A stretch of 60,041 nucleotides of DNA, taken from a virus. Made by a program: the position numbers and the translations under genes. Below are positions 4,482 through 57,868 of this stretch, in pieces (positions within the stretch are counted from its first letter, which is position 1; each line of letters begins with the position of its first letter). A model generated the notes under the pieces. The model had not been told where the DNA came from and did not search any database. It saw only the letters and a program-made list of their open reading frames with translations. The stretch lies in IMG/VR virus record IMGVR_UViG_3300036841_000070, positions 1 to 60,041 of that record; one strand, 5' to 3'.

Positions 4482-4520
4482 TGGTACTCCTCTCGATGGT
4501 TTGTAGTGCCCTCCCCGTCG

Positions 4521-5033: not shown

Positions 5034-5105
5034 TCTGCGCACCACACCACATCACCTCACTTCACATCATGTTGCCACTGCAACAACCCAACCCACATCA
5101 CACCA

Positions 5106-43361: not shown

Positions 43362-43363
43362 GA

Positions 43364-43393
43364 TTTGAATGGAAAACACAAAAATTTCCTGAT
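43364..43393. repeat. Dispersed TTTGAATGGAAAACA repeat, copy R6
   Basis: Matches R3-R5 of the 4.9-5.0 kb region (TTTGAATGGAAAACA and a terminal CTGAT), with a looser middle. Same orientation as all others. It lies in the short gap upstream of tRNA-like element 1, about 38 kb from the other copies, so the repeat probably marks transcription units rather than one origin. Confidence 0.65.
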
Positions 43394-43408
43394 TTCGCGC
43401 CAGCCTCA

Positions 43409-44227: not shown

Positions 44228-44535
44228 GGTTCCGCCTCCTTGGCTTGCCGCACCAGATCGTCGATGAACTCTAGCCGCTGTACTCTTGCCATTGGCTTTA
44301 CTTTGAACATATAGCTGTATTCATTTTGCCTCCCCGCTCCCACAACGACAGTTACCTCGTTCTTGAAATGGTTCCAGATAACCTCGATGGGGATTAGGTC
44401 CGACAAAGCAGCGCGCATCTTGGCGTAAGTCAAGCGGCCGGTATCGAGCGGCCAGCCAAGCGCTAGGTGTAGGTCAGATTCGTATATGTCGTTGCCCACG
44501 AACAGGAGGCTATCCATATTGACGAGCTTCGACAT
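44206..44535 (-). CDS. Hypothetical protein
   Basis: 109 residues from ATG44535 (AGGCGAGGA upstream). Mixed alpha/beta; NEYSYMFKVKPMARVQRLEFIDDL near the end. No family recognised. Overlaps the FAD protein start, so the two are co-translated. Contains one copy of the SD-like element in the frame reading VGAGRQN. Confidence 0.6.
   Translation of the reverse strand: MSKLVNMDSLLFVGNDIYESDLHLALGWPLDTGRLTYAKMRAALSDLIPIEVIWNHFKNEVTVVVGAGRQNEYSYMFKVKPMARVQRLEFIDDLVRQAKEAEPFLLLQS
44322..44337 (-). repeat. Dispersed SD-like element
   Basis: GCGGGGAGGCAAAATG on the minus strand, inside a gene in the frame GAGRQN. The ATG opens only a short out-of-frame ORF. Confidence 0.75.
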
Positions 44536-44569
44536 TTCCTCGCCTACTAACAATTCAGACTCACTCCTC

Positions 44570-44617
44570 AAAAAAAGAGTGGCGGGCGACCCTGGGGCCG
44601 CCCACCTTGAACTCTTT
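44570..44617 (-). terminator. Rho-independent terminator
   Basis: Read on the minus strand: AAAGAGT and ACTCTTT enclose a GGGCG/CGCCC stem, followed by a run of seven T. It stands directly after the SAP-domain gene and should end the long leftward transcript from about 57.8 kb. The genes at 36-44.5 kb would then need a promoter of their own. Confidence 0.75.
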
Positions 44618-45398
44618 AGACTGGCTCCTCCACGTCGTCTGTGCGGAGGCGGGCGATCAGAACGGTACGCTTGCCCTTGGTCTCCAGCTGACGGTCGGAC
44701 AACTCCTGGCGGAGCGCGACGACACTCATGCTCTCGTAGTTGTCGCCCTCGGCCTCCTCCTCGTCATCCTCCTCGTCCTCATCTTCTTCTTCGTCAAGCT
44801 CCTCCTCGTCCTCGTCCTCCTCAGCCTCCGTCTGTTCGCGGATCGCGTCACGGATGTCGTCGTCGGACATGGACTTACGGACGGACACTTCCAGGCCCTG
44901 CTCCTTGATGAGCGCCTTCAACTCTGCGCGGCTGAGGTCGTCAAGGTTGCCGTCCTCGGCCTCCTCATCTTCCTCCTCCTCGTCCTCATCGACATCCGGC
45001 TCGGCCTTCATGATCTTGCCGATGTTGGGGCGGTAGTCGCCGCTCAGGTCGGTGCCCTCACGGAGCCTGATCATGGCCTCCTTGCCCTCGATGGTGGCAA
45101 GGTTGCCGCCGCGCGCCTTGAGGCTGAAGGCGACGACCAACTCCTTGAGCCTACGCGCCCAGCTGGACTCGATGTCGAGTGGCGCGTAGTACCAAAGCTG
45201 GCCGTACTGCTCCTTGATCTTCTTGCCATCGGCGTCCTTTGTGATCTGGAAAACGACCTCGACCATTTCCTCGTCGTTGGTCTTTGACCGCTTCTGATCG
45301 ACACCGACGACCTTGGCGTAGTATACGCCCACAGGTGCCTGCTTGAATCCGGAGGCTTCGATCCCCGAAGTGTCTCCGTATTTGATGACCTTCGCCAC
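44616..45398 (-). CDS. SSB-like protein with two SAP motifs and poly-acidic linkers
   Basis: 260 residues. The N-terminal ~135 residues (GVYYAKVVGVDQKRSKTNDEEMVEVVFQIT) resemble the DUF669-type single-strand-binding partners of phage recombinases. Two SAP motifs follow (about 152-188, LDDLSRAELKALIKEQGLEV, and 225-258, MSVVALRQELSDRQLETKG), each behind a long Glu/Asp run. SAP domains bind DNA; acidic tails in SSBs recruit partners. Its neighbour is a Sak4-like ATPase. Confidence 0.7.
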   Translation of the reverse strand: MAKVIKYGDTSGIEASGFKQAPVGVYYAKVVGVDQKRSKTNDEEMVEVVFQITKDADGKKIKEQYGQLWYYAPLDIESSWARRLKELVVAFSLKARGGNLATIEGKEAMIRLREGTDLSGDYRPNIGKIMKAEPDVDEDEEEEDEEAEDGNLDDLSRAELKALIKEQGLEVSVRKSMSDDDIRDAIREQTEAEEDEDEEELDEEEDEDEEDDEEEAEGDNYESMSVVALRQELSDRQLETKGKRTVLIARLRTDDVEEPV

Positions 45399-46171
45399 TA
45401 CCTAGCTCCCTTCACCATACGTCGTCGTGGCTTCGCGCCGTTGTTGTCGGCGCGCTTCTTGCTGATAGCTTCTTCCAGCCTAGGGATTGTCGGGTTGAGC
45501 ATGAAGCCCTTGTCCGTGCAATCGAACTGATCCTTCGCGTAGATGTGTTCGGTTTCGTTCAGTTGCAGCCTCCTTGTGCCCTTGCTGGTAACTGTACCGA
45601 AAGCGACGATGTTGGAGTACCCGCACACCTTCATCGCCATGTTCTTACCCTGCACCCACGGCATCATCTTGCGGTCGATTTCCTCATCCTCAGGAGATGG
45701 GGATAGCTCAGCTGGCCAGGCCGTGATGCCGAAGTTGAATGCGCCCGAGTCGGATAGGGTAGCCATATCGCGTACCCACCGGCCAAGTCGCTGCATGTTG
45801 ATCCAGTAATCGCCTTTGTCAAGCCCATAGCGTTTACGTGCTGGCTTCTCGATGATGATCGTTTCCCAAAGATCATCCAAACCGATATCCTGATACGATG
45901 AGATGCTGTCGAACCAGACCCAGCTGTAGCGCTCGCTACCTTCATGCCGGCAATGTTCATAAACCTCCTCCATAGCCGACCAGTCGCGCACGACCCATTG
46001 CTTGTGACGCGGCTTATCTTCAGGAAGGATGCTGTCTACATAGTCTACAGGCGGCCTGATAAAGAGCGCGTGCCCTGGGCTTGTACCGGCGAGCCGGGTT
46101 TTGCCCCAGCCCGATGGTGCATTGAGGAATAGCTTGATAGACTTACTATCAGTTAGCGGGACGGCTGGCAC
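45398..46171 (-). CDS. Sak4/RecA-like ATPase (AAA_24), recombinase
   Basis: 257 residues. Walker A APSGWGKT (about 18-25) and Walker B SWVWFDSISSY; the compact RecA core lacks the N- and C-terminal RecA domains. Pattern of the Sak4 single-strand annealing or strand-exchange proteins of phages. Basic C-terminal tail (GAKPRRRMVKGAR). It starts on the last base of the SSB-like gene, suggesting the two work together. Confidence 0.75.
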   Translation of the reverse strand: MPAVPLTDSKSIKLFLNAPSGWGKTRLAGTSPGHALFIRPPVDYVDSILPEDKPRHKQWVVRDWSAMEEVYEHCRHEGSERYSWVWFDSISSYQDIGLDDLWETIIIEKPARKRYGLDKGDYWINMQRLGRWVRDMATLSDSGAFNFGITAWPAELSPSPEDEEIDRKMMPWVQGKNMAMKVCGYSNIVAFGTVTSKGTRRLQLNETEHIYAKDQFDCTDKGFMLNPTIPRLEEAISKKRADNNGAKPRRRMVKGAR

Positions 46172-46467
46172 TGTGTCTCCAGAAACTCTTTGATGTTGAC
46201 GTACTTGCCGTCGTGCCAGGTCGAGGATTCCAAGAACCAGTATGCCAGGCCCATCTGGTCAACGCTCTTGATGTCCCACTTATCGAACGATTCCTTGATC
46301 GTCAGTTCGCCGTCGCAGACTGTAGCCTCGACGCAGAACATCGGCAGGACGCTATTGACCAGACACTCTCTGCACCAAGCAAGCGAAACAGGGAACCCCG
46401 GCACGGCGGCAACACCCACCATCGGCTCCCGGTCGCAGATGTCGCATTTGTTATCGCCTGCCGTCAC
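46153..46467 (-). CDS. Zinc-binding hypothetical protein
   Basis: 104 residues. Cysteine pairs CDIC and CREC, plus other cysteines, suggest a zinc site; the C-terminal half is alpha/beta. Overlaps the ATPase start by 19 bases. Function unknown. Confidence 0.6.
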   Translation of the reverse strand: MTAGDNKCDICDREPMVGVAAVPGFPVSLAWCRECLVNSVLPMFCVEATVCDGELTIKESFDKWDIKSVDQMGLAYWFLESSTWHDGKYVNIKEFLETQCQPSR

Positions 46468-46655
46468 TTCTTCGCCTCCTTGACCTCCTTGACCTCCTTG
46501 ACCTCGTAGCGCGTCTTGATGTCGAGCTTCTCAGCCTCGGCGTTGGCGCGGTCGCAGGCGGCGCTCGCCTGCTCCCTCAGATCGTAATGGCTGTGCATGT
46601 TGTCCGTGCCCGAGATGACGACCCTGTATGGCTTGACTTCTTCCTGCTGCTTCAT
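46464..46655 (-). CDS. Small protein with KEV repeat tail
   Basis: 63 residues. The end of the gene holds a 9-base tandem repeat (GACCTCCTT on the plus strand), encoding VKEVKEVKE. The N-terminal half is alpha/beta with RVVISGTDNMHSHYDLREQA. Repeat length could vary by slippage. Confidence 0.6.
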   Translation of the reverse strand: MKQQEEVKPYRVVISGTDNMHSHYDLREQASAACDRANAEAEKLDIKTRYEVKEVKEVKEAKK

Positions 46656-47653
46656 TACCTACGCTCCACTCGCTCGTGAGCAGCATACGGCTCCCACCTA
46701 ACAAACGCCGCTCGTTTGAAAGCCTCCCAGTCGTTGCCCGTTTCATGCAACTCGCACATATCGCGGTAGCTACAGAACTTGCAGTTGGGCATGAACTGCG
46801 GTCCTGGGTTCTTGTAGACATGGTTGTGATTATGCCGCGCCGCTTCCATGTCCTGGATTTCCTGCCAGACGCGAGCTTTAACGCGCTCTGCTTCAACGTC
46901 GCCTCTGAACGTTAGCTGGCGCTCGAAGTATGGCGGCGGTTGCCGTTTGCTGATGGAGCCGTCTTTATTGAGACGACGACCCTGTTCGTCCCATTGCCCG
47001 TCGTCTGGTCGTATGGTCTTGCGCAGCCAGTTGTAGATGATGCCGTCGAGTCGCTCGTCCGGCTGGAGGTATCCGTGCAGACGTAGCCAGCGTGGCCCGT
47101 ATGTCCAGTACGCACCCACCTGCTCATCCATCGGCAGGGCAGACTGGCTAATTGCAGTAGTTGTTTTGTGCTCTGCAAAGCGTATCTTGGCAGTCGGCAG
47201 GTGCTCCCAAACCCCATCTATCGTCCCCACGTAATAGACCTTCTTGCCACCAAGCCTCCCGATGGGAAGCATGAATGTCTGCTCGCTGCTGATGATCTTG
47301 TACTCTTTGTCTACTTCTTGCCAGTGCTCGACGTAGCGATTGAGCATGTCGATACCTAGCTCGCGCATATCAACGACTTGATCGTCCTCCCAGATGCTGG
47401 TGTCTTGCTCTTCTGAGAGACTTTCGCACAGCATCTCGAAAGTGGTGGTCGGATGCGGACCGCGCTTCCTGCCCTTCTTGTAGTATGCGGCCAGACTTTG
47501 GTGTACCAAATCTCCGAACAGGAGCTTTGTGTCCGTCGTTGGCGCGCGTAGGTTCTCGACGAATGACCAATACCATTTTTGTCGGCACGTCAGGAATGCT
47601 TGCCTCTCCGATGTTCGGACCAGGATATGTCCATTTCGCCTCCCCGCTATCAT
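46655..47653 (-). CDS. Cas4/RecB-like exonuclease with Fe-S cysteine set
   Basis: 332 residues from ATG47653. PD-(D/E)XK nuclease motifs: Asp146 in VGTIDGVW and Glu161-x-Lys163 in AEHKT. Cys23 (FLTCRQKWYW) and Cys291/Cys294/Cys300 (CKFCSYRDMC) form the four-cysteine set of Cas4/AddB-type iron-sulfur nucleases. It should resect DNA ends for the adjacent Sak4-like recombinase. An upstream in-frame ATG (47788) would add 45 low-quality residues and cover the hairpins there. Confidence 0.8.
   Translation of the reverse strand: MIAGRRNGHILVRTSERQAFLTCRQKWYWSFVENLRAPTTDTKLLFGDLVHQSLAAYYKKGRKRGPHPTTTFEMLCESLSEEQDTSIWEDDQVVDMRELGIDMLNRYVEHWQEVDKEYKIISSEQTFMLPIGRLGGKKVYYVGTIDGVWEHLPTAKIRFAEHKTTTAISQSALPMDEQVGAYWTYGPRWLRLHGYLQPDERLDGIIYNWLRKTIRPDDGQWDEQGRRLNKDGSISKRQPPPYFERQLTFRGDVEAERVKARVWQEIQDMEAARHNHNHVYKNPGPQFMPNCKFCSYRDMCELHETGNDWEAFKRAAFVRWEPYAAHERVERR
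47632..47647 (-). repeat. Dispersed SD-like element
   Basis: GCGGGGAGGCGAAATG on the minus strand, overlapping codons 3-8 of the nuclease (frame AGRRN). Confidence 0.75.
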
Positions 47654-47678
47654 CGTGGCCTTTCTGTCGCAATGGGCT

Positions 47679-47745
47679 GGGTGGTGCGCCGGAAGCCCAT
47701 TGACCAACGCACCACCCTGGAGCCTCGGAGTGATAGAAGGCTCCG
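47679..47745 (-). other. Two intergenic hairpins before the nuclease gene
   Basis: GGGTGGTGCG (47679-47688) and CGCACCACCC (47708-47717) form a 10-bp perfect stem. GAGCC/GGCTC arms form a second stem just beside it (about 47720-47745). They fill the only gap of more than 100 bases inside this part of the operon and may control the nuclease gene. Confidence 0.6.
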
Positions 47746-47797
47746 CTAGCAGCCTAGCAAACCCGATTGTGAAACGCAAGCGGCGCATCGCGCGATG

Positions 47798-48046
47798 CTA
47801 GGAGCCTCTTACTTCACGGATTACAGTATCGAACAGAGCTAGGAATCTCTCCAGTTCCCAGTACTCATTTACCAGCGGCTCAATTTCCTGCATCCGCCAC
47901 TTAATGTCGTACCTGATGCTCTTGAGCGTGGGTGCGCGCTTTGGCTTGGGCGGCATCGGCTTATGGATACGGGCCGACTTCTCCTGCTTGCCAACTACTC
48001 TGAGTGCCGGGTCACCGGGCATGAAATCATCTTCTTGTGGTTGCAC
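47798..48046 (-). CDS. Small basic helical protein
   Basis: 82 residues from GTG48046, with GGGAG upstream, whose G overlaps the stop of the small membrane protein (TAGTG). Basic Pro-rich N-terminus, then helices (KSIRYDIKWRMQEIEPLVNEYWELERFLALF). Function unknown. An ATG at 48160 in the same frame would overlap the membrane protein. Confidence 0.55.
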   Translation of the reverse strand: MQPQEDDFMPGDPALRVVGKQEKSARIHKPMPPKPKRAPTLKSIRYDIKWRMQEIEPLVNEYWELERFLALFDTVIREVRGS

Positions 48047-48180
48047 TACTTCTCCCTTTGGCCGGACAGTATCCACGCAGTCATAAGACTTACAGCGAAT
48101 ACCGTAGTGTGGTTTAGTGGTAGGCCGCAGATCAATGCTATGGCTAAAAGCATTATCCAAACGGCCATTCTCTGGTGCAT
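48046..48180 (-). CDS. Small two-helix membrane protein
   Basis: 44 residues from ATG48180, six bases after the helicase stop. Two hydrophobic stretches (MAVWIMLLAIALICGLPL and TTVFAVSLMTAWIL) suggest a hairpin in the membrane. The TAG stop overlaps the next GTG, the coupling typical of this operon. Confidence 0.5.
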   Translation of the reverse strand: MHQRMAVWIMLLAIALICGLPLNHTTVFAVSLMTAWILSGQREK

Positions 48181-48186
48181 TACTTG

Positions 48187-50115
48187 TTAGCGGCTAGCAC
48201 GGCGTAGTTCCTCAATCTCCTTGACGTAGTTGAGAACGGTGCGGTTGTTGAGCTTCTTGTTGCCCGCCACTCTGGCAATGTACTCCTGGATCGAGTGTGG
48301 CGTTCGGTACGTGTAGCACTTCAGTGCGGTGTCGCGGCTGCCTCGGTCGCCTCGGCCAAAGAACTGATGCATCACGTCCGGGTCCCAGGCCTCGTCGAGT
48401 GCGTGTGCGCTGTTAGCCCGCTCTAGGTTGAGGGCGGTGCCGCCGGTCTGGATCGTCATCACGATCACGAACGGCCGTTTGCTTTGGCTGGCGAACTTGT
48501 CGAGCATCGGCTTGCTGTCCTTGGTGCCGCCGTGCAGTACCTCAACGTCGATGCCGTTGGCGGTCAGGTAGTCAGCTACCACCTGCATGTAGCTTATTTC
48601 CAGGACGCCAACGTAGGCACGCGCGCCCGGCTCCCAGTCCTCGCTCCTGATGCCGTTCTCATCGAGCCTCTCAAGCAGGTACTCAAGCTTGCAGCTGTTC
48701 TTGGTAGCTACTGGCTTCGTGAAGAACTTATCCCAGTCGAGCTTGCTGTTCGCCATCTGCCGCAGGCGCGTGTACTGCGCGAGCACGATGCTTCCGGACA
48801 GGCGCTTGCCGTCAAGCACAATTTCGTGCGCCTGATCGAACTCGATGTAGTCGTGCAGCTGACGCCCGTCCATTGGCGTTTCGACCAGAATCTCAACGGC
48901 GTCTGGCAGCCCAGGCAGCGCTTCCTTCTTGTCGCGCCGGATTAGGTGGTTAATGTGGTGCTTGTAGAACTCCTCCTCAAATCCGTTCTTGATCCCGCCA
49001 ACCTTCTTGACGGTCTTGGTGGCACCGTGCCCGCCTCTGACGTAGACTTCCTCCTCCGTGACGGAGAGCCACTCGTCCGCCCAGCGCCAGAAGCTGCTGT
49101 ACTGCCGCTTGTCGATGAAGTTAAGCACCGGCCAGAGTCGCTCCGGCTTGCCGCCAATCGGCGTACCCGACATTGGCCACTTGAACTCGGCCTTAACCAT
49201 CTGTGCGCCGACGTGGAACTGAGCCTTCCTGTTAGGCAAGCCGGTCGCATGGAACTCGTCGATAATGAATGCGCCCCAATCGACTTCGAACAAAGCCTTC
49301 TGGTTAGCGCTCTTGAAGCGATACCAGTTACCCAGGTAGTCACGTCCGGCGTGCAGCGGGTCCGGCCGCTCTGGCGGAGCCTTCTTCTTGGCGTTGTAGT
49401 ACTGTACGACACGGAGGTCGTCTGCTATCAGAGCGAGCGCGAAACCCATCTCGTCCTCGCCATCAGGCCCCTCGACGAAACTCGCAATCAGCTTGGCACG
49501 TTCGCGTGGGTCCTCGCTCGTCAAGCACTCGTAGTCAGAGAGTCTGCTGAACTCCGTCTGCCAGACATTTACGAGTGAGCGCTTGGGCGCAATTACCAGG
49601 ACCGGCTTCGGGTTGACCCTGGCCTCATAGATCGCTCCGATGGCTTCCAGCGTCTTGCCGGTGCCCACGTCGTTCGCATTGATGGCAGAGCTAAGGCTCA
49701 TCATCTTGATGTCGGCGCTCTGGTAGGGGCGCGGCGGGCGCTCCTTGCGTAGCGCATGGCCGAACGGGATCGTGGGATCGTCAATTCGCCTCCCCGCTAT
49801 CACGTCCACAATGCGCTTGGGCGTGTGTGCGAGCTTGGCACTGGGGGCCGTCCGCAGCTTGGTCTTTTCACGTTCCTGCACGACCTGATCCTTCGCCCAG
49901 GCACGCAGCGCGTTGCCGAGCTTCAGCCGCTCCCCGAACATCGTGCGGAGGTAGCGCGCGACCGTCATCGTCATCGGGACCGTCCAGAGCTTCTTGTCCC
50001 AATCGAAATGACGACCGTGGATGGTCTTGATCTTGGCTAGGTCGGAGTCGTCGTACTTGAAATGTACTTCGATCCTGTCTAGCGATTCATTTAGCTCTAT
50101 GAATATGTCGTTCAA
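48187..50115 (-). CDS. SF2/SNF2-type DNA helicase
   Basis: 642 residues. N-terminal HARP-like module (IKTIHGRHFDWDKKLWTVPM). Then motif I NDVGTGKT (148-155), motif II DEFH, motif III SGTPIGG and, near the C-terminus, motif VI QFFGRGDRGSRD. An SNF2/UvsW-like ATPase that remodels branched DNA (fork regression, recombination). Works with the nuclease, the Sak4-like ATPase and the RuvC-like resolvase. Confidence 0.85.
   Translation of the reverse strand: MNDIFIELNESLDRIEVHFKYDDSDLAKIKTIHGRHFDWDKKLWTVPMTMTVARYLRTMFGERLKLGNALRAWAKDQVVQEREKTKLRTAPSAKLAHTPKRIVDVIAGRRIDDPTIPFGHALRKERPPRPYQSADIKMMSLSSAINANDVGTGKTLEAIGAIYEARVNPKPVLVIAPKRSLVNVWQTEFSRLSDYECLTSEDPRERAKLIASFVEGPDGEDEMGFALALIADDLRVVQYYNAKKKAPPERPDPLHAGRDYLGNWYRFKSANQKALFEVDWGAFIIDEFHATGLPNRKAQFHVGAQMVKAEFKWPMSGTPIGGKPERLWPVLNFIDKRQYSSFWRWADEWLSVTEEEVYVRGGHGATKTVKKVGGIKNGFEEEFYKHHINHLIRRDKKEALPGLPDAVEILVETPMDGRQLHDYIEFDQAHEIVLDGKRLSGSIVLAQYTRLRQMANSKLDWDKFFTKPVATKNSCKLEYLLERLDENGIRSEDWEPGARAYVGVLEISYMQVVADYLTANGIDVEVLHGGTKDSKPMLDKFASQSKRPFVIVMTIQTGGTALNLERANSAHALDEAWDPDVMHQFFGRGDRGSRDTALKCYTYRTPHSIQEYIARVAGNKKLNNRTVLNYVKEIEELRRASR
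49782..49797 (-). repeat. Dispersed SD-like element
   Basis: GCGGGGAGGCGAATTG on the minus strand, inside the helicase gene (frame IAGRRID). Its TTG is out of frame with the helicase and opens about 27 codons. Confidence 0.75.
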
Positions 50116-50296
50116 CTTGTTTCCTTCCTGGAATCTTACTTGTGCCGAAACAGTAGGTGCAGGGGCGGGTTGGATACCCGCCCTTGCCCCAGTCCGGTGC
50201 TACGATGGTGCGCTCGCCGCAGTGGGGACAGATTATCCATTTCCATCCCGGCACGACATTGCGGCTCTTACGAACCTCCCACTCAGGCAGCATCAC
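50087..50296 (-). CDS. Small zinc-ribbon protein
   Basis: 69 residues. CPHC and CTYC, 24 residues apart, form a zinc ribbon; Lys/Arg-rich elsewhere. Overlaps the helicase start by 29 bases. Nucleic-acid binding likely. Confidence 0.65.
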   Translation of the reverse strand: MMLPEWEVRKSRNVVPGWKWIICPHCGERTIVAPDWGKGGYPTRPCTYCFGTSKIPGRKQVERHIHRAK

Positions 50297-50493
50297 TCCC
50301 GTACCCTGACGCGGTCGTCAGCGTCGAAGGTCAGATGCTCAAAAGTGAGGTGCCCGTTATACGTGACGCGCACTTCTTGGCCGACGATGCTGAGTTCGCA
50401 GATATGGTAATACTTTCTGATGCTGCCCTCTTTGACGACTAGGATGTCGCCTGCCTCTAGCTGGTCGGCGTAGAGTCTGACGATCCTAGCCAT
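50293..50493 (-). CDS. Small beta-rich hypothetical protein
   Basis: 66 residues from ATG50493. ARIVRLYADQLEAGDILVVKEG and strands after it suggest an SH3/OB-like barrel. Four-base overlap with the next gene. No family recognised. Confidence 0.6.
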   Translation of the reverse strand: MARIVRLYADQLEAGDILVVKEGSIRKYYHICELSIVGQEVRVTYNGHLTFEHLTFDADDRVRVRE

Positions 50494-50692
50494 CGATGTG
50501 CTTGAGAACGCCGTCCTTGATTGTGTAGTTCGGCTTCTCGTCAACCTCGACGATGCGCGTGTTACGGACGAGCACCCAGCGGCTCGCCAAGTCCTTGACG
50601 TAGGCGTCGGCCTCGGCCTCTGTGGCAAAGACCAGGCCGTTGCCGACCCACTCGCCTGTGTCGTCTGCGATAACCTGCGGTTTGTAAGGCAT
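50486..50692 (-). CDS. Small hypothetical protein
   Basis: 68 residues from ATG50692 (GGGAA upstream). Alpha/beta; GLVFATEAEADAYVKDLASRW resembles small phage accessory proteins with a single conserved helix. Overlaps the next gene by 8 bases. Confidence 0.6.
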   Translation of the reverse strand: MPYKPQVIADDTGEWVGNGLVFATEAEADAYVKDLASRWVLVRNTRIVEVDEKPNYTIKDGVLKHIDG

Positions 50693-50715
50693 TTCCCAGC
50701 CCTTTCCCAGCCTCG

Positions 50716-51369
50716 CTAGACGTTCTCGCGCGGGTCTAGGCCGCGCAGACGCAAGGCTGTCTCGGCGTTGGCAACACGGCTTCCCCAGTCGTCGTAGACG
50801 CGCCCGCCGCAGACCGGGCCGATGCCAAGCTCGCGGCTGATGCGGTTGGTTATGCGCGTGTTGCATTGGCTGCATCGTCCGATGGTGCGACCGTACAGGA
50901 CGGCTGCGTTGCCAATGCCGTACCTGACGATCTTCTTGACGACATCGGGCGCGCGACCGAGGTATGTTTCGTTCGGCCCGATGATCTGGACAACGTACTT
51001 GTTCTTGCGCTCCTTGTTCTCCCTGATGCGATAGAACGCGATGTCGTTATCGCTGTGCTCGTTGGGGACGGCATACCTTCCTGGCGGGATGTCCTCAACG
51101 GTCGGGTTGTTCTTGCTTCGATCATCCTGCCCTGGCAGGAGCGGACGCCCCTTCAAAGCCGAGATGATCTTGCCAGCGTCGCCCTTCGTCAGACCGGCCT
51201 CTGTTAGTTCCTTGATACGGAGTAGCCACGACTCGGGGATGTCGCGGCTCTCGACCAGGCCCTTGATGTAGCCGATCTGGGGCGGCGTAGCTGGGTCCTT
51301 CGTCCAGGCCGGTAGCTCGTCCGACGGCTTCTCACTCCGGAGTAGTCTGAGTTGCTCGTCACTTACCAC
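50716..51369 (-). CDS. DUF6011-like zinc-binding protein
   Basis: 217 residues from GTG51369. The C-terminal segment GRCSQCNTRITNRISRELGIGPVCGGRVYDDWG has four cysteines in the pattern of a DUF6011-like domain. The N-terminal half contains TPPQIGYIKGLVESRDI and ALTEAGLT-like helices. Common in actinophage early regions; function unknown, DNA binding likely. Confidence 0.65.
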   Translation of the reverse strand: MVSDEQLRLLRSEKPSDELPAWTKDPATPPQIGYIKGLVESRDIPESWLLRIKELTEAGLTKGDAGKIISALKGRPLLPGQDDRSKNNPTVEDIPPGRYAVPNEHSDNDIAFYRIRENKERKNKYVVQIIGPNETYLGRAPDVVKKIVRYGIGNAAVLYGRTIGRCSQCNTRITNRISRELGIGPVCGGRVYDDWGSRVANAETALRLRGLDPRENV

Positions 51370-51553
51370 GCTTCTTGGCTCCCTTCTTCTTGGGCTTAGG
51401 CTTTTCCATCTGGCTGTGAACTTCGCGGTGGATATCCGTGATCAGACCGCGCTCCTCATCGGAGTAGTCGTCGCTGATGCCTGCGTCTGCCAGGGCGCGT
51501 TGCAGAACATCGCCTGCCTTCTGGCTCATAACGAGCACAACCTGGCGCTCCAT
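51359..51553 (-). CDS. Small protein with basic tail
   Basis: 64 residues. Helical (GDVLQRALADAGISDDYSDEERGLI), with a Lys-rich end (KPKPKKKGAKKRGK). Starts on the base where the upstream gene stops and overlaps the next by 11 bases. Confidence 0.6.
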   Translation of the reverse strand: MERQVVLVMSQKAGDVLQRALADAGISDDYSDEERGLITDIHREVHSQMEKPKPKKKGAKKRGK

Positions 51554-51864
51554 CAGGACTCCGGCTTCTCTGTCGGGCCAAGGCTGCGGCTTAGCTGGAC
51601 TGGCAGGTTCTTGTCACGGATGCCGTCACGCAGCCCCATGACCTCGTCCTTCGACAAGAGCAGCTCCCAGTCCTCAAGCGGGTTCCAACGGATGCTGAGT
51701 GCCGTCGTGCCAGCCTTCGGACGCAAGCTGAAGAGTCGCTCGGTTTTGCTCTGGTTGAAGCCGAGATAGACCGCCGTCATCTCGCGCATATACCAGCGGT
51801 GGTTGCCAGATTGGCTTTTGAACTGCACGCGGTAGAGCGCACCAATTTCGAGCTTGGGTTCCAT
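51553..51864 (-). CDS. Hypothetical beta-rich protein
   Basis: 103 residues from ATG51864. The start directly follows GCGGGGAGGTAAA, making this the clearest case in which the dispersed element acts as the ribosome-binding site and start of a real gene. Beta-prone sequence (ALYRVQFKSQSGNHRWYMREMTAVYLGF). No family recognised. Confidence 0.65.
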   Translation of the reverse strand: MEPKLEIGALYRVQFKSQSGNHRWYMREMTAVYLGFNQSKTERLFSLRPKAGTTALSIRWNPLEDWELLLSKDEVMGLRDGIRDKNLPVQLSRSLGPTEKPES

Positions 51865-51877
51865 TTTACCTCCCCGC
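51862..51877 (-). repeat. Dispersed SD-like element used as a real start
   Basis: GCGGGGAGGTAAAATG on the minus strand. Its ATG is the start of the 103-residue gene and its TAA stops the small membrane protein upstream. Confidence 0.8.
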
Positions 51878-51949
51878 TCTGATCTCATAGACATAGGCTC
51901 CGTAGAGGACAAGTACGCAGAAGATGGCCATCCACTTCTCGCGTGTCAT
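51866..51949 (-). CDS. Micro membrane protein
   Basis: 27 residues from ATG51949, which overlaps the upstream stop (ATGA). One membrane segment (WMAIFCVLVLYGAYVY) and the end EIRAGR. It fills exactly the gap between two genes, which supports translation. Confidence 0.5.
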   Translation of the reverse strand: MTREKWMAIFCVLVLYGAYVYEIRAGR

Positions 51950-52272
51950 GACTTGCTTGACCTCCAGAACGAGAGCTTGTCGCCCGGCTTGAGCTGGAAG
52001 ATTTCTCCGTCCATCGTGTCCTGGAACTTGTGCTCCTGCTTGAGTGTGAAGTCGCCGCTGGGGCAGACGTTGCTGATGACGCCGTAGTCCATCGCCTGGA
52101 AGGCGTTGCCCGGACTGATGCCCTGCGGCTCGTTGGGGTAGTCAAGCCCCTCGTTCGGGACAGCGAGCTTGCGCTCAAACGCTATGGCATAGACCATAGC
52201 GGTAATGTGGAAGCCGCCCCAACGGAGCTTGAGACGCCTACCGCCACGGATAATCTCCGTGTTGAGTGGCAT
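51946..52272 (-). CDS. Hypothetical protein
   Basis: 108 residues from ATG52272. Mixed alpha/beta; a His, several acidic residues and LKPGDKLSFWRSSKS at the end. No family recognised. Confidence 0.6.
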   Translation of the reverse strand: MPLNTEIIRGGRRLKLRWGGFHITAMVYAIAFERKLAVPNEGLDYPNEPQGISPGNAFQAMDYGVISNVCPSGDFTLKQEHKFQDTMDGEIFQLKPGDKLSFWRSSKS

Positions 52273-52398
52273 ATGTAAACCTTTCGGTCGAATGATTAAG
52301 TGGCACCCTTTCCCCTTGGTGCCTGCCAGGCAGTTCGCTGTGCGGTTCGGCCCCGCATCTTCCGCGCGGTGGAAGGCCGCGCCCTGGCCCGCTCGTTA

Positions 52399-52629
52399 CT
52401 ACAGAAGGATCAAGTCCTCCGCTGCCACCGTCCTCAAACCTCCAGGATCGGCGTAGAACTGAATGAGGTCTTGCCGCCGAACCCCTCCTCCTGGGAGGGG
52501 TCCAGCGGGCAGATACCTTCTGAAGCCGGTGACGCGGTGCTCACGTTCGATAGTGATACCGTGCCATTCGCCATCGGCGTTCTTGCTGAAGACCTTCGAG
52601 ATTTGTAGAACCTTGCGGCCTACAATCAT
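52399..52629 (-). CDS. Small hypothetical protein
   Basis: 76 residues from ATG52629. Beta-prone N-terminus, then AGPLPGGGVRRQDLIQFYADPGG. Followed by a 126-base gap without a gene that holds a GGCACC/GGTGCC hairpin. Confidence 0.55.
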   Translation of the reverse strand: MIVGRKVLQISKVFSKNADGEWHGITIEREHRVTGFRRYLPAGPLPGGGVRRQDLIQFYADPGGLRTVAAEDLILL

Positions 52630-52655
52630 GCGTGCGATCTGACCTTCGTCAGTCG

Positions 52656-53783
52656 CTACTTGGAAGGGTTTGCCTTGCGCGAACGGGTGACGCGGACCTT
52701 GCGGGACTTGGGAGCGGGCTGAGGCTCTTCCATCTCCTCCTCCTCCTCGTCCTCCTCATCCTCGTCCTCGTCCTCATCCTCCTCGTCCTCGTCAAGCTCC
52801 TCTTCCATCTCCTCCTCGTCCTCAAGCTCCTCCTCGTCCTCCTCGTCCTCCTCGTCCGGCTCCTCCTCCACCTGCTTGGCGCGCCGCCTGGTCTTGGTGG
52901 CCTTGGCCTTCGCGGTGTCCTTCGCCTTCGCCTTGGTCGAGTTGGACTTGTCCTGCTTGATGATGACGGACTCGGCCCCCTCCGGGCCGTGGTCGCGGAG
53001 CAGCCTGCGGCCGGTCATCGAGCCGGGGAGCGTCCAGTCGTACTTGTCCTCGATCATCTGGCCGATGTCGCCCCAGCTGGTGGCGGGCTTCTTGTTGCGC
53101 TCGCGGTAGATCAGCTTGGCGATGTTGCGCTTCTTCGCGTCGCTCAGCCCGGCGAGCTTGTCCGCGCCGCGCGTGCGGCCGGTGGTCTGCTTGGCGCCGT
53201 TGTCGGCGGCGGCGGCCTTGGTCGGCCGCTTCTTGGCGGTGCTCGCCTTGGCGGCGGGCTTCCTCGTGGCCATGCTGAACTTCCCTTCCTTGTCTCGTTG
53301 GATATTCGTTTTCTGTCTACCGTGCAATTGTGCGTGATGTCTCTTGCACAAGAACCGGATGTTGCTTAGATCGTTGTTGCCGTTGTCGCCGTCGATGTGA
53401 TGAATCTCGGGCTTATCTGAGCAATCTTCGATCTCACACTCAATAGGAACTTTCCCTTTGAGTTCCCTCCTGGCGCGAATCTTCTTCCCGCCATAAGTTG
53501 CATCGTCACCCTTATAGGAGTGGTGTTGTTTCGGTGGCCTCCTTGTCTCGGATCGGTTGATTGACTCCGGCACCCTAGCAGGGTAGCGCGGAATTGGCAA
53601 CAAATTGGTGCCCCTAAAGAGCACCGTAGGATGTATCCTCCATATACCTATGAGGACGCGACCGAACCCCTTACGTGACCATTTGACGGTGAACTTATCG
53701 TCGCCCGGTATCAGGCCCGTCAAAAAGCCTGCCTTCCAAGGGTGCTCGCGGTCGGGCAGATATATGACGACTCGTCTGCCCAT
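52656..53783 (-). CDS. HNH nuclease fused to a histone-like basic/acidic protein
   Basis: 375 residues in one frame. Residues about 115-155 are an HNH domain (CEIEDCSDKPEIHHIDGDNGNNDLSNIRFLCKRHH). Met171 (codon at 53273, with GGAAGGGAAG upstream) begins MATRKPAAKASTAKKRPTKA, a histone H1-like Lys/Ala region, then a domain with DIGQMIEDKYDWTLPGSMTGRRLLRD, and a tail of almost pure Glu/Asp. Two products may arise: a fusion and a separate 205-residue DNA-binding protein. The frame is also open upstream to CTG53876, next to an SD-like element, at the stop of the preceding gene. Confidence 0.7.
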   Translation of the reverse strand: MGRRVVIYLPDREHPWKAGFLTGLIPGDDKFTVKWSRKGFGRVLIGIWRIHPTVLFRGTNLLPIPRYPARVPESINRSETRRPPKQHHSYKGDDATYGGKKIRARRELKGKVPIECEIEDCSDKPEIHHIDGDNGNNDLSNIRFLCKRHHAQLHGRQKTNIQRDKEGKFSMATRKPAAKASTAKKRPTKAAAADNGAKQTTGRTRGADKLAGLSDAKKRNIAKLIYRERNKKPATSWGDIGQMIEDKYDWTLPGSMTGRRLLRDHGPEGAESVIIKQDKSNSTKAKAKDTAKAKATKTRRRAKQVEEEPDEEDEEDEEELEDEEEMEEELDEDEEDEDEDEDEEDEEEEEMEEPQPAPKSRKVRVTRSRKANPSK

Positions 53784-53872
53784 AAGTCGGCGTGCTTCGT
53801 ACCAGTAGTTGACCGGCCCCGGTTCGACCCGATATGAGCGGTCGAATACCGGCTGACGCTTGCGCTTTCTCT

Positions 53873-54160
53873 TCAGCTTGCCTCCCCGCTTGTGGTCTCA
53901 GGCGGCGCGAAGTCCGCCTCTGTTACTGGTGGGTCCGCGATGTAGTTCCTGATCTGCTTGATCAGGCCCGCGCACGCCTCGGCCTTGAGCATGTTGCCGA
54001 GTGTGAGGTGCTCGATATCGTAGATGTGGTAGTCCTCCTCGATGTCGTGCTTATCGACCCAGGCGACGGCATCGCGCAGCGTGTCGAAGCTGACTACTGG
54101 TCGTGGGATATCGTCTGCTATCCAAACGCGGCAGACAACGTGGCGAGCGTAACGCTCCAT
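53873..54160 (-). CDS. Hypothetical protein
   Basis: 95 residues. Alpha/beta; FDTLRDAVAWVDKHDIEEDYHIYDIEHL. No family recognised. Ends TTSGEAS, encoded by a copy of the SD-like element in a third reading frame. Confidence 0.6.
   Translation of the reverse strand: MERYARHVVCRVWIADDIPRPVVSFDTLRDAVAWVDKHDIEEDYHIYDIEHLTLGNMLKAEACAGLIKQIRNYIADPPVTEADFAPPETTSGEAS
53874..53889 (-). repeat. Dispersed SD-like element with CTG
   Basis: GCGGGGAGGCAAGCTG on the minus strand. The CTG (53876-53874) overlaps the stop of the upstream gene (CTGA) and is in frame with the HNH fusion protein. Confidence 0.75.
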
Positions 54161-54376
54161 TCATTCCTCCTGTTCGTAGGGCCAGATTACGTTGGTGGTA
54201 GCAAGCGCCTGCGCCTCCTCATGCGCCATCTGCACTGGCTCTACAGATTCCCAGCCGTTATCTTCTGCCAGGTCCATAGCGTAGGCCCGTGCATCAATTT
54301 CGCTGATAAATGGTCCGAATACATCTACGTGGTCGTAATCAGGGGGTTCCTTCGCTACCACGTACCATTGGCTCAC
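54161..54376 (-). CDS. Small acidic protein
   Basis: 71 residues from GTG54376 (GTGA overlap with the upstream stop). FISEIDARAYAMDLAEDNGW resembles the 68-residue protein encoded at 50486-50692, so the two may be paralogues of one small alpha/beta family. Confidence 0.6.
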   Translation of the reverse strand: MSQWYVVAKEPPDYDHVDVFGPFISEIDARAYAMDLAEDNGWESVEPVQMAHEEAQALATTNVIWPYEQEE

Positions 54377-54573
54377 GCCTCGTGAACCTCGACGGTCACC
54401 TTGATCGCCTTGGGGTTGCCGAGCCTGGCGAAGCCGGAGTTCCCCAGGTACAACGTTCTGAGATCGGTCGGCCGCTCCTCCGTGTCGTAGCGCACGACTG
54501 ACTTCTTCGGGTCGCTCAGGAGGAGGATGACTTCGATCTTGGGCTTGGAATTGCTCGTCTTAGGTTGAGGCAT
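54373..54573 (-). CDS. Small hypothetical protein
   Basis: 66 residues, ATG54573, with CAGGAGTG upstream. Beta-prone; polar N-terminus. No family recognised. Confidence 0.6.
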   Translation of the reverse strand: MPQPKTSNSKPKIEVILLLSDPKKSVVRYDTEERPTDLRTLYLGNSGFARLGNPKAIKVTVEVHEA

Positions 54574-54594
54574 GGCACTCCTGTCAGAATTTTT

Positions 54595-54768
54595 TCAGGG
54601 GGAGGGTGTTAGGATCAACAGCGCGGCGAGCGCCGCGATCACGAGTACGAGGATGGCGACGGCAACCCATCGCCAGATGTGGCGGCGCTCGTTCTTCACG
54701 AGTCGTCGCTCAAACGAGCGCCGCTGGCTTGCCTGGAACTCGTTGCGAATCTGTTCCAGAGACTTCAC
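54595..54768 (-). CDS. Single-pass membrane protein
   Basis: 57 residues from GTG54768 (GTGA overlap). A basic helical N-terminus (FQASQRRSFERRLVKNERRH), then one strong membrane segment (VAVAILVLVIAALAALLIL) reaching the C-terminus. Tail-anchored layout. Function unknown. Confidence 0.6.
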   Translation of the reverse strand: MKSLEQIRNEFQASQRRSFERRLVKNERRHIWRWVAVAILVLVIAALAALLILTPSP

Positions 54769-55025
54769 TTGACGGTGAGTCCTCCCTTCGCGTTGCGGTA
54801 GATGCTCGCGTACCACGAGCGGTCTGTGAACGGGTCCGGCCCGACGACGTTGAACGTGATGTCCTCGGGCAGCTGATCGGCGTAGCCGCTGAACTTCTGC
54901 CACTCCTTCATAGCCGCCGTATCGTACAGGTAGACGGTGTGCGGTGCTTCCTTGATCGCGAGCTTGAGCGCGGCCTTCGTCGGCTTCTTGTTGGTGAAGT
55001 CGGCACCGCCTTGTGCGTAGATCAT
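54765..55025 (-). CDS. Hypothetical protein
   Basis: 86 residues from ATG55025; GTG55031 in the same frame is possible. Pattern MIYAQGGADFTNKKPTKAAL, then VYLYDTAAMKEW and DITFNVVGPDPFTDRSWYA, is one I associate with small conserved actinophage proteins of unknown role. Confidence 0.65.
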   Translation of the reverse strand: MIYAQGGADFTNKKPTKAALKLAIKEAPHTVYLYDTAAMKEWQKFSGYADQLPEDITFNVVGPDPFTDRSWYASIYRNAKGGLTVK

Positions 55026-55027
55026 AT

Positions 55028-55213
55028 TCACTCCGGGTCCAACTCGTCGAATGATAGGGTATCCTCCACGCCGTCGTCGAACATGACCTTGCAAACGTCA
55101 GGCAAGGTCGGGTCATCGGACAGCGCTGTGATCCTGCCGTAGCGCTCGTTGGGCTTGAGTTCGTGGTGACCGTGAATTTGCACCCGCTGACCTTCTGACG
55201 GGTTCTCGATCAC
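55028..55213 (-). CDS. Small SH3-like protein
   Basis: 61 residues from GTG55213 (GTGA overlap). PSEGQRVQIHGHHELKPNERYGRITAL reads like a small SH3-type barrel. Function unknown. Confidence 0.6.
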   Translation of the reverse strand: MIENPSEGQRVQIHGHHELKPNERYGRITALSDDPTLPDVCKVMFDDGVEDTLSFDELDPE

Positions 55214-55419
55214 CCCTCCTCCTCAATCTGCGTAACGATCAGGTCGAGCAGATGCCGCACAAACGGCTCGCGCGGAATCATATCCGGCCGGATGTCGTCG
55301 ATCCGCTCGACCAGATCGGCCGTGATGCGGATCGGCAGGTACTGTGGCTCAACCACCTGGAGGGGAGGCTTCTTCACGGTGCCTCCCCGCTTCTTGGTCT
55401 TGGGATTGCTGACTGCCAT
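55210..55419 (-). CDS. Ribbon-helix-helix-like regulator
   Basis: 69 residues from ATG55419. PQYLPIRITADLVERIDDIRPDM...FVRHLLDLIVTQIEEEG fits a ribbon-helix-helix domain: one strand (LPIRI) and two helices. A basic N-terminal arm precedes it. An SD-like element sits at codons 11-16, with its GTG in frame, so a shorter form starting MKKPPLQVVEPQYLP is possible. Confidence 0.6.
   Translation of the reverse strand: MAVSNPKTKKRGGTVKKPPLQVVEPQYLPIRITADLVERIDDIRPDMIPREPFVRHLLDLIVTQIEEEG
55375..55390 (-). repeat. Dispersed SD-like element with in-frame GTG
   Basis: GCGGGGAGGCACCGTG on the minus strand, in the frame reading RGGTV of the ribbon-helix-helix gene. Confidence 0.75.
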
Positions 55420-55550
55420 TAGACCTTCACTGGCTCCTTCTTGGGTTCTGGGGTTTTGACCGGCTCCCGCTCTGGGACCGGCTCCTTGCTGGGCACTGGG
55501 TTCCTGATAGGCTCTACTGTGATCTTCTCCTTCTCTTTACCGATCTCCAT
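55419..55550 (-). CDS. Small Pro/Glu/Lys-repeat protein
   Basis: 43 residues from ATG55550. Mostly KEPV/EPVK-type repeats, disordered. The TAA overlaps the next ATG (TAATG). No function evident. Confidence 0.5.
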   Translation of the reverse strand: MEIGKEKEKITVEPIRNPVPSKEPVPEREPVKTPEPKKEPVKV

Positions 55551-55983
55551 GCTTGCGCTCCAGGTTGTAGAGTTTGTACGGGACGCCATATGCTTCAGCT
55601 AATGGCTTCGCTAGCCGCCAACGGCTATACGGCACCAAAAGCATCTTGGGGTAAGCGAACTGTGCTCGCCAACCTGTCTGTGCGGGGATGATCCCGCCCC
55701 AGAGGTTTACTTGTCCTGCAATCGTGATATCGTGCGGGGCGGCGAACATCCCTTCAGACTTCGTGTAACCCATATCGAATAGCCGGTTGAACGTCGCAGC
55801 AGCGTATGTACCGCAGGAACAATGAGGATCAGGAACCTCATGTTCATGCCGGTCGCATGTTGCCTCGAAATCCATAAACGGCTGCCACATTATGTGGTCG
55901 CGGGCGAAGCTGAATAGCCTGTTATCCTTGACTAGCCAGACGCGGTATCCGACCGCAGGCTCAATCGCGTCAGGAACCCTCAT
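55537..55983 (-). CDS. Conserved actinobacterial-type protein with Cys/His cluster
   Basis: 148 residues. The pattern GYRVWLVKDNRLFSFARDHIMWQPF, CDRHEHEVPDPHCSCGTYAA and QVNLWGGIIPAQTGWRAQFAYPKML belongs to a family I recall from many actinobacteria and their phages, of unknown function. The Cys and His residues suggest metal binding. Confidence 0.65.
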   Translation of the reverse strand: MRVPDAIEPAVGYRVWLVKDNRLFSFARDHIMWQPFMDFEATCDRHEHEVPDPHCSCGTYAAATFNRLFDMGYTKSEGMFAAPHDITIAGQVNLWGGIIPAQTGWRAQFAYPKMLLVPYSRWRLAKPLAEAYGVPYKLYNLERKHGDR

Positions 55984-56965
55984 CGAGTGTCTCGATCAAC
56001 TCCTGCGGCAGCTTCCACCACCACTCGTTGCCGCGCTTCACCGACTCAACCTCGGCTTCGGCCTTGGCCGCTTCCAAGGTGCGCTTCGTGATGCCGTAGT
56101 GCTTGGAGTCCTCGATGACTTCGGTCGCCCGCGCCTGGTGGTTGGGCGCGGCTCCGAGGTAGTCCACGAGGAACTCAAGCGCCTTCTCACGCTTCGTCGG
56201 CGGACGGCCCAACTTGCCTCCCCGACCTGGCTTGGCGAGCATGAGCATCGGGTCGAACCCTTCCTCAACTTCGCCGATGGTCGTGAGAAGCGGCTGCGGT
56301 CGCTCAATGCCCTCAACGTCGGCCTCGTCCATCTCGAACTCCAGAGGAAGCGGGTCGTCACGCAGCTGGCTCTTGACGCAGCACATAAGGATGCGATCCT
56401 TGTCCTCAGGGTCGCGCCCGACGATGTAGATCATACGTCCGGCGGCGGGCAGGCCAGAGCTTGCGCCGCCGATGGCGTTGAGCGGATGCGAGTTCTTCGC
56501 CACGTTCTTGATAACGTGATCGACGAGCACGAACGCACAGCCGGTTTCCTGCGCCAGCTTCTTCAGAGGGCGCGTGGCCTTGCGGATGCTGTCGCTCGTT
56601 CGCTTGACGCCCTCGCTCAGATGCTCGTTGACGGGGTCGCAGATGACGAGCTTGACCTTGTACTTCTCGATGTACTTCCGCATCCGCCCGATGTCCTCTG
56701 GGAACAACGGGTCGAAGTCATACTCGATCCGACGCTTGTTCGCGCCGATAGCCGTCAGGCGCGGGCCGAGCATGGTGCTGTCGATTTCCTCGGTCTGGCT
56801 AAGGACCACGACGCCCTTCTTTGCCACATCGGTGGCGATGCGAATGCCGAGCAGCGACTTGCCGCCACCCGGCCTCCCCGCTATGACGTGGACCGTACCC
56901 TCAAAGATACGGTCCTGCCATAGCGACTTGATGTTTTTGTTCTCAATCCTACTGGCTCTCGCCAT
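55970..56965 (-). CDS. RepA/DnaB-like AAA_25 ATPase
   Basis: 331 residues. Walker A AGRPGGGKS (29-37), Walker B LVICDP, then FVLVDHVIKN and NAIGGASSGLPAAGR as in RepA-type hexameric helicases. Residues 245-331 are a separate helical segment with a winged-helix look (RPPTKREKALEFLVDYLG). It is the second such ATPase here, so one may load or regulate the other. Two SD-like elements occur inside. Confidence 0.75.
   Translation of the reverse strand: MARASRIENKNIKSLWQDRIFEGTVHVIAGRPGGGKSLLGIRIATDVAKKGVVVLSQTEEIDSTMLGPRLTAIGANKRRIEYDFDPLFPEDIGRMRKYIEKYKVKLVICDPVNEHLSEGVKRTSDSIRKATRPLKKLAQETGCAFVLVDHVIKNVAKNSHPLNAIGGASSGLPAAGRMIYIVGRDPEDKDRILMCCVKSQLRDDPLPLEFEMDEADVEGIERPQPLLTTIGEVEEGFDPMLMLAKPGRGGKLGRPPTKREKALEFLVDYLGAAPNHQARATEVIEDSKHYGITKRTLEAAKAEAEVESVKRGNEWWWKLPQELIETLDEGS
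56210..56225 (-). repeat. Dispersed SD-like element with in-frame TTG
   Basis: TCGGGGAGGCAAGTTG on the minus strand. The TTG is in frame with the RepA-like protein at the border of its C-terminal domain (GRGGKLGRPP). Confidence 0.75.
56866..56881 (-). repeat. Dispersed SD-like element inside a Walker A region
   Basis: GCGGGGAGGCCGGGTG on the minus strand, encoding AGRPGG of the RepA-like Walker A motif. Here protein constraint alone could explain part of the match. Confidence 0.6.
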
Positions 56966-57125
56966 ACCTTCTCCCTTCTGTGACGCTGGTTTGCAGTACC
57001 CACGGCAGATCGCCCACGGCGCGGACGAGCCGCTCGCTCAATATCGTAGCAAGTGCTAGCTCGCCCGCATCGCGGGCCAGACCGTTGTCTTTGACCTCAA
57101 CCTCAACGACGAACTTGAACCTCAC
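56949..57125 (-). CDS. Small hypothetical protein
   Basis: 58 residues from GTG57125 (GTGA overlap). Beta strand VRFKFVVEVEVKD, then a helix; ferredoxin-like possibilities. No family recognised. Confidence 0.55.
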   Translation of the reverse strand: MRFKFVVEVEVKDNGLARDAGELALATILSERLVRAVGDLPWVLQTSVTEGRRYGESQ

Positions 57126-57343
57126 TCCTCCTCCGCGAACATCTTCTGGAAGCAAGGGTCGCAGGTGCCGCTGAGCATAAGCTCACGCCGCGCTGCTGAC
57201 TCGTTGGGCATGACGTCCTGAATCTTAGCGCCGTTGCGCCAGGCGATAAGCTGGTGCTGTTGCAGCACGATGGGCGGCTGCTCCTGCTCGCACATCGCGC
57301 AGGTCACCGTGACAGTGACCTTGTTGCGTCCGAAGTTGCTCAC
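57122..57343 (-). CDS. Small zinc-ribbon protein
   Basis: 73 residues from GTG57343, with GGAGG upstream. CAMC and CDPC, about 40 residues apart, form a zinc ribbon. Contains a helix with RRELMLSG. Confidence 0.6.
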   Translation of the reverse strand: MSNFGRNKVTVTVTCAMCEQEQPPIVLQQHQLIAWRNGAKIQDVMPNESAARRELMLSGTCDPCFQKMFAEEE

Positions 57344-57507
57344 TTCGCCTCCTTGATAGCCTTGAGGACTTTGTTGCACTCGTCGCGCAATTCCTTGATC
57401 TGCGCGTCGGTGAGGTTTCCCTGGAGGATGAACATTCCGTTCTCCACTCCGAGGACGTTCCACGACCCGTTCACAGCGGTGGGTCCGTGAATGCTAATCG
57501 AGTTCAT
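57340..57507 (-). CDS. Small hypothetical protein
   Basis: 55 residues from ATG57507, overlapping stops on both sides (ATGA before, GTGA after). NGMFILQGNLTDAQIKELRDE; alpha/beta. No family recognised. Confidence 0.6.
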   Translation of the reverse strand: MNSISIHGPTAVNGSWNVLGVENGMFILQGNLTDAQIKELRDECNKVLKAIKEAK

Positions 57508-57761
57508 GCGGTTTCCTCCTGTGTGAGATCGTCGAGCGCGTCCATAGCGCTCTGGTGCAGGCTGAAGCAGTGAGGCAGCGGCACGTGGTCGCTGCTGCCG
57601 ATCTGAAGGATGTAGAGCGGCTCCCAGGCCTCGGCGGCGTTGGGGTTGCTCGACTGACGGCAGACGATAGCCAAGTGCGGCGTGGCCATATTCATAACGG
57701 CGGCGACCGTCATCTCGCCAGTGCTCATATCCGGAATCCTGATTGCGGCGAATCCGTCCAT
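57504..57761 (-). CDS. First gene of the leftward early operon, unknown function
   Basis: 85 residues from ATG57761 (GAAGGGA upstream). Alpha/beta with two Cys and several His; LYILQIGSSDHVPLPHCFSLHQSAMDALDD. It is the first of about 30 minus-strand genes and follows tRNA-like element 2 by 27 bases. Confidence 0.65.
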   Translation of the reverse strand: MDGFAAIRIPDMSTGEMTVAAVMNMATPHLAIVCRQSSNPNAAEAWEPLYILQIGSSDHVPLPHCFSLHQSAMDALDDLTQEETA

Positions 57762-57788
57762 ATTTAATCCCTTCGTTGTGGTTTACAT

Positions 57789-57868
57789 AGCGTGAACCGG
57801 GAATCGAACCCGGCGAACCGGCTCAAGGCGAGGAGATCAACTTACCTCCCCGCCCTGAGCCTCACGCT
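57789..57868 (-). ncRNA. tRNA-like element 2 (acceptor, T-arm, long hairpin)
   Basis: Read on the minus strand: AGCGTGAG pairs with TTCACGCT (8 bp, one G-U). A perfect T-arm, CCGGG TTCGATT CCCGG, lies at 57813-57797. The D and anticodon arms are replaced by one 15-bp hairpin (57821-57860) with a 10-base loop and two G-U pairs. These G-U pairs favour the minus-strand RNA. No CCA is encoded. It lies in the leader of the long early operon and contains a copy of the SD-like element. Confidence 0.7.
57838..57853 (-). repeat. Dispersed SD-like element in tRNA-like element 2
   Basis: GCGGGGAGGTAAGTTG on the minus strand. The GGGGAG part is paired in the 15-bp hairpin and the TTG lies in its loop; the TTG opens only a five-codon frame. 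Confidence 0.75.

Follow-up and report, generated by a model that had tools for sequence, protein, structure and literature searches.

The 60,041-nucleotide viral genome IMGVR_UViG_3300036841_000070 (IMG/VR), whose entire length we refer to as the window, carries 12 exact copies of a short asymmetric DNA element, CGGGGAGG-N5-TG, which is real, strict, common to the relatives of this virus, and independent of reading frame. We tentatively favour, with somewhat less than even confidence, the explanation that the element is a regulatory site in the early operons which depends on direction, would be bound by a phage factor, and has been taken over as a start site where genes adjoin. A first-pass annotation made from the letters alone had described the element as frame-independent, strand-biased, non-random, and similar to a ribosome-binding site with its start codon. 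These properties were borne out, and all 12 listed copies were found at the same positions and strands; the interpretation given there was supported in part.

Within the window, CGGGGAGG occurs 14 times, compared with a mean of 2.3 and a maximum of 6 in dinucleotide shuffles. In a control in which synonymous codons were permuted per strand and noncoding DNA was shuffled (300 runs), the 12 copies of CGGGGAGG-N5-TG compared with a mean of 0.19 (maximum 2), and the fuller pattern of the annotation, also observed 12 times, with a mean of 0.03 (maximum 1). The annotation had named shuffled genomes as a check on the element, and the element survived it. A weight-matrix scan of the window scored the 12 copies at 19.4 to 31.8 bits and the next best site at 11.4, within background; this gap is all-or-none, with degenerate or intermediate copies absent. 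CGGGGAGG is the top over-represented 8-mer in the window and in two relatives, and the second in a third. Without the TG it occurs only 8 times in the four phages compared here, near chance level, two of these being in the window at 4510 (minus) and 17212 (plus). The latter lies in the late genes, so that the earlier claim that none is found there holds for the full element, which is confined to the non-structural region, and fails for CGGGGAGG alone.

The window is a complete-looking, actinophage-like genome of 60 kb. Bases 1–148 repeat 59894–60041 apart from one G, indicating a circular assembly with overlap; the supposed extra copy at 47, which lacks one G, is therefore the same locus as 59940, and the element loci total 12. 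Gene calls were based on a home-made codon score. The encoded proteins include a DnaE-type polymerase, an SNF2 helicase, a PD-(D/E)XK exonuclease, a Sak4-like annealing protein, a DnaB/KaiC-like ATPase, a primase/helicase, a terminase, a transglycosylase-like domain, and HNH proteins. DnaE shares approximately 42% identity with its counterparts in phages of Streptomyces and Microbacterium, and an actinobacterial host is therefore probable.

Relatives were obtained by protein searches, and the comparison set consists of four genomes plus fragments. Copies with TG number 11 in G1 (3300036846_000442), 11 in G3 (3300015371_000034; G2 is a near-identical phage), 10 in G009 (3300036851_000198), and 2 in the fragment S18 (3300006028_000083), giving 46 together with the window. 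Among 33 DnaE relatives searched, G009 alone had more than one match, and the element was absent from S19, whose exonuclease is 57% identical. A scan of approximately 85,000 cellular genomes returned 94 stretches matching an 18-base form of the element, with one chance-like match each, and the other viral contigs scanned likewise gave isolated, chance-like matches only. An origin of the element in a host or in another virus was rejected on these scans. Contig G043, with three matches, was also rejected as a carrier, its general CGGGGAGG background being high. No bacterial-genome relatives of the window ATPase were found, and a literature search, with subscription papers mostly outside its coverage, found no report of the motif. 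Judged from these scans, the element is restricted to a single clade of actinophage-like viruses, a small set of phages from soil.

The consensus of the 46 copies is YCAnAG-CGGGGAGG-HAANNTGR, an asymmetric site of about 22 bp in which the upstream YCAnAG is conserved and a purine follows the TG in most copies. The pyrimidine at position 10 of the annotated pattern is not essential, as relatives carry A, C, or T there, and G once in 46. The TG is invariant in 46 of 46 copies, including approximately 29 that are not start codons, and the flanks are alike in start, in-gene, and noncoding copies. Translation alone thus does not explain the element; a pure translation signal would not preserve the TG and flanks in 29 non-start copies. 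The site also differs from a sigma-70-type promoter, as no conserved −10 hexamer lies downstream of the TGR. RNA accessibility was uninformative, showing no signal at element copies and none at ordinary starts either.

By class, the 46 copies comprise 14 gene starts, 3 copies in frame in the first codons of a gene for a ribbon-helix-helix (RHH) protein, 14 in-gene copies, and 15 noncoding copies; these classes were assigned by hand on the basis of open reading frames (ORFs) and codon scores, and a handful could be disputed. The annotation recognized a single copy serving a gene, 51862–51877 (minus), and this copy indeed provides the ATG start of gene 51553–51864, but it is not alone. The copy at 53874–53889 (minus) provides a CTG start (53876–53874) for the HNH-protein gene 52656–53876 (minus), as it does in two relatives, and 55375–55390 (minus) lies among the opening codons of the RHH-type gene 55210–55419 with its GTG in frame, in the same place as in two relatives. 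In the three phages where this start is apparent, the N-terminal part of the HNH protein is conserved starting at the CTG, and an ATG at 53783 would omit it. Start codons supplied by the element in the relatives further include TTG, for the ATPase and the exonuclease in G3. At the junction after the conserved gene 51946–52272, where the copy at 51862 lies, the element is present in three phages and is followed by three different genes.

In-gene copies occupy all three frames. The copy at 44322–44337 (minus) is inside gene 44206–44535, where it reads A-G-R with its TG out of frame. The copy at 47632–47647 (minus) covers codons 3–5 of the exonuclease gene 46655–47653, and three relatives likewise have copies where this gene starts. 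The copy at 49782–49797 (minus), within the SNF2-type helicase gene 48187–50115, is part of ATA-GCG-GGG-AGG-x-ATT, which is identical in four genomes, whereas one codon is kept at only 126 of 360 invariant residues (35%). This copy is maintained against synonymous drift, with identical rare codons in all four genomes. Two copies lie within the ATPase gene 55970–56965: one at 56210–56225 (minus), with its TG in frame and absent in relatives, and one at 56866–56881 (minus), in the Walker A codons (AGRPGGGKS). At the latter site the copy is exact in the window and off by one base in G1, and G3 encodes the same residues with other codons, showing that point substitution is enough to create or erode a copy.

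The noncoding copies include 57838–57853 (minus), which lies in the 5′ arm of the long hairpin in a tRNA-like RNA, as in G3. This RNA (57789–57868, minus) lacks a D-arm and has a 7-bp acceptor, an 18-bp hairpin, and a T-arm with GTTCGATTC; its minimum free energy is −54.4 kcal/mol (z −7.3). The stem sequences of its G1 and G3 counterparts differ and the fold is similar, which suggests covariation. ARAGORN made no call and Rfam gave no gathering-level match, and a tRNA or Rfam explanation of this copy was accordingly rejected. Between this copy and the outward-pointing one at 58528–58543 (plus), also noncoding, lies a noncoding block (57996–58508) that is approximately 70% conserved among relatives and is possibly an RNA or promoter region. 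The copy at 59940–59955 (plus) is noncoding, upstream of rightward genes from 248, and its overlap duplicate at 47–61 lacks one G. Finally, the noncoding copy at 4084–4099 (plus) comes after the primase/helicase gene, immediately ahead of a GGCCCCTTCGGGGCC hairpin, and is kept in G1 and G3.

All coding copies in the four phages are on the same strand as their leftward genes. Noncoding copies occur in both orientations. At one homologous noncoding spot the copy is plus in the window (58528) and in G1 (41419) and minus in G3 (53189); at another it is minus in G1 (46365) and plus in G3 (58919). These differences sit more easily with a site linked to local transcription than with a translation start. 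Spacing is also regular: intervals are roughly 0.7–3.3 kb along the early (non-structural) operons, with a coefficient of variation (CV) of 0.38 in the leftward region, compared with 0.83 for random placement (P ~0.0001).

The closest known repeats are the start-associated sequences (SAS) found in mycobacteriophages of cluster K (GGGATAGGAGCCC) and in cluster EF Microbacterium phages, AnnaSerena among them (GGGAAAGGACCCC), and a reading of the element as an SAS, although rather doubtful, is a serious rival in view of its Shine-Dalgarno-like core. The element would then be a strict ribosome-binding site giving early genes a distinct initiation, perhaps with a special factor, and the other copies would be minor starts or by-products. 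GGGGAGG is able to pair with the 16S 3′ end, with NTG 4 nt downstream, and approximately 14 copies are clear gene starts, with 3 more in frame near starts. The SAS of cluster K are equally strict (12 exact and 3 one-mismatch copies in Anaya), are likewise absent from structural genes, and move among gene families (PMC3203893); AnnaSerena, whose DnaE is 42% identical to that of the window, carries its SAS in cluster EF (PMC7302621). The element shares with SAS a short, asymmetric, near-invariant, Shine-Dalgarno-like sequence in approximately 10–20 copies outside the structural genes (about 10–17, mostly in one orientation), accompanying different gene families in different phages.

A location directly upstream of start codons, in contrast, applies to only about 17 of the 46 copies, with 14 in-gene and 15 noncoding; approximately 29 (about 63%) are not gene starts, and the 15 noncoding copies have no ORF, yet the TG and flanks are equally conserved in them. 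The internal starts or translation-start module of the annotation could thus account for the former 17 but not for a TG that is equally invariant without a following ORF. SAS are found inside ORFs in 6 of 125 cases (PMC12699233). The distance from SAS to the start codon varies (3–7 nt in Anaya), whereas the TG of the element is at a fixed distance, and the spacing of SAS copies in Anaya is uneven (CV 0.96). The orientation flips at homologous noncoding places also speak against an SAS, as does the first base of the NTG, which is biased to T (18 of 36 copies counted) while 66 of 93 called genes start with ATG. About half of SAS sites are preceded by a 17-bp inverted repeat, the extended SAS (ESAS). 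Upstream conservation of this kind was not seen for the element: no conserved columns were found beyond about −9, no dedicated inverted-repeat search having been run.

In its behaviour the element is closest to the stoperators, one of the possibilities listed by the annotation. Like the cluster A stoperators of L5 and TipsytheTRex and the Rhodococcus cluster CA repeats, it is asymmetric, spread over the genome, and oriented with transcription, the coding copies being on the strand of the leftward genes, and it occupies promoter-proximal and gene-junction places. Stoperators are direction-dependent (PMC9283540). Contacts separated by one turn of the helix would be compatible with CGGGGAGG and the TG, whose centres are 10 bp apart. 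Unlike stoperators, the element has another sequence, a Shine-Dalgarno-like core, and many in-gene copies, and no integrase and no immunity repressor, including the monomeric cluster A type with helix-turn-helix (HTH) and stoperator domains, was found among approximately 40 window proteins scanned. The ops site of RfaH recruitment has been described as a consensus pause (PMC5995543). The element is similarly an exact, directional signal of the non-template-strand type; its sequence differs from that of ops (GGCGGTAG-NN-TG), and the scanned proteins yielded no NusG paralog. With the pause placed at the T, the invariant G, G, T, and G of the element presumably correspond to G-11, G-10, Y-1, and G+1 of the consensus pause, a resemblance only. 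The element resembles SAS and stoperators and fits the definition of neither.

Under the regulatory-site explanation, the element most likely docks a putative phage control factor. A dedicated factor, probably phage-encoded, would read the element in the direction of transcription along the early operons and, once bound, would act on passing RNA polymerase, like stoperators or ops sites, gating early transcription. Genes abutting the element may use it as a ribosome-binding site and start codon because it contains GGAGG and an NTG at initiation spacing, and such co-option would explain the CTG and TTG starts. A candidate for the factor is the small RHH-like protein encoded at 55210–55419 (minus), recognized by its sequence pattern. 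Its gene was found in each of the four phages that carry the element and in 0 of 10 other relatives examined; the element is at its 5′ end in three phages, and copies flank it in the fourth. This co-occurrence suggests the RHH protein as a candidate binder, although kinship could explain it. Protein binding, action on transcription, and the RHH protein as the binder are all three inferred.

Several points weigh against this explanation. The core resembles a Shine-Dalgarno sequence and a start codon set at a workable distance, a likeness for which a DNA-level model offers no explanation. The genes scanned also yielded no immunity repressor, integrase, or NusG-like gene. The co-occurrence of the RHH gene is confounded with kinship, and the RHH assignment relies on a sequence pattern and a low-confidence AlphaFold model (pLDDT 63), too poor for a fold search; no sequence relative was found in the PDB. 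The usual targets of RHH proteins are repeats or palindromes, and the element is asymmetric. Among other proteins of the window, one of 208 aa (36122–36748) has a weak HTH_3 match (E 0.004), and tblastn gave no counterpart of it in G1 or G009. A Pfam scan covering part of the window genes gave no match to the NGN/KOW family, and no single-subunit (T7-like) RNA polymerase was found among the scanned proteins, several large late-region genes being outside the scan.

A more specific version, which we consider unlikely, is that the exact, regularly spaced, direction-dependent site, placed both within and between early genes, is a recurring RNA polymerase checkpoint under an autoregulated RHH protein in a lytic-type clade, with start codons fused to it. 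Still less probable is that the element, as the annotation also proposed, serves replication or recombination (as a Chi-like sequence, a cassette boundary, or a fork-directed site) and is read on one DNA strand. Such a signal is suggested by the exactness, shortness, and asymmetry of a sequence whose positions float and whose copies are biased to one strand, and the alignments of relatives begin or end at the element at 51869/34453/45683 and 53881/36194/47449. However, the early region is mosaic anyway. The element is limited to the non-structural region and co-oriented with the genes there, and no cellular genome searched has more than an isolated copy, so that it is not the host Chi in those genomes. 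A mobile module, as proposed by the annotation, or a selfish one inserting at new places is very improbable: positions differ between relatives and flanks are mosaic, but no target duplication or clean insertion was seen, and the Walker A site of G1 is one base from the exact copy of the window in the same codons, a point change. A chance product of protein motifs (AGR, RGG) and biased codon use, suggested by the several in-gene copies that read A-G-R, is excluded in its pure form by the codon-preserving shuffles (0.03–0.19 expected, 12 observed), by copies in all frames and in noncoding DNA, and by rare GGG/AGG codons fixed in four genomes, and we give it almost no weight.

Other repeats were noted in these and related genomes. 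AT-rich repeats of about 50 bases (TTTGAATGGAAAACAATGATTTAAACTGAT-like) occupy 3958–5057, a noncoding region before the late genes, occur once at 43362–43409, and are also found in relatives. The distant relative IMGVR_UViG_3300045243_000060 has 35 copies of TCACAGCC on both strands genome-wide (1.6 expected), a dispersed 8-mer without obvious start association. SAS-like repeats occur just before ATG in IMGVR_UViG_3300049733_000058 (GAAAGGTAG, with the 8-mer GAAAGGTA present 14 times) and in IMGVR_UViG_638276466_000001 (AAGGGAAT in 11 copies, of which several lie away from starts).

What SAS and related actinophage repeats do is described in the literature as unresolved. This clade separates the motif from the start-codon location, two features that are almost always confounded in SAS, and the in-gene helicase copy together with the flipped noncoding copies allows one to ask whether such a repeat acts in transcription, in translation, or on DNA. 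The element itself, with its floating positions and regular spacing, may be used for finding its reader protein. If true, the RNA polymerase checkpoint would represent an elongation-control system without prior description.

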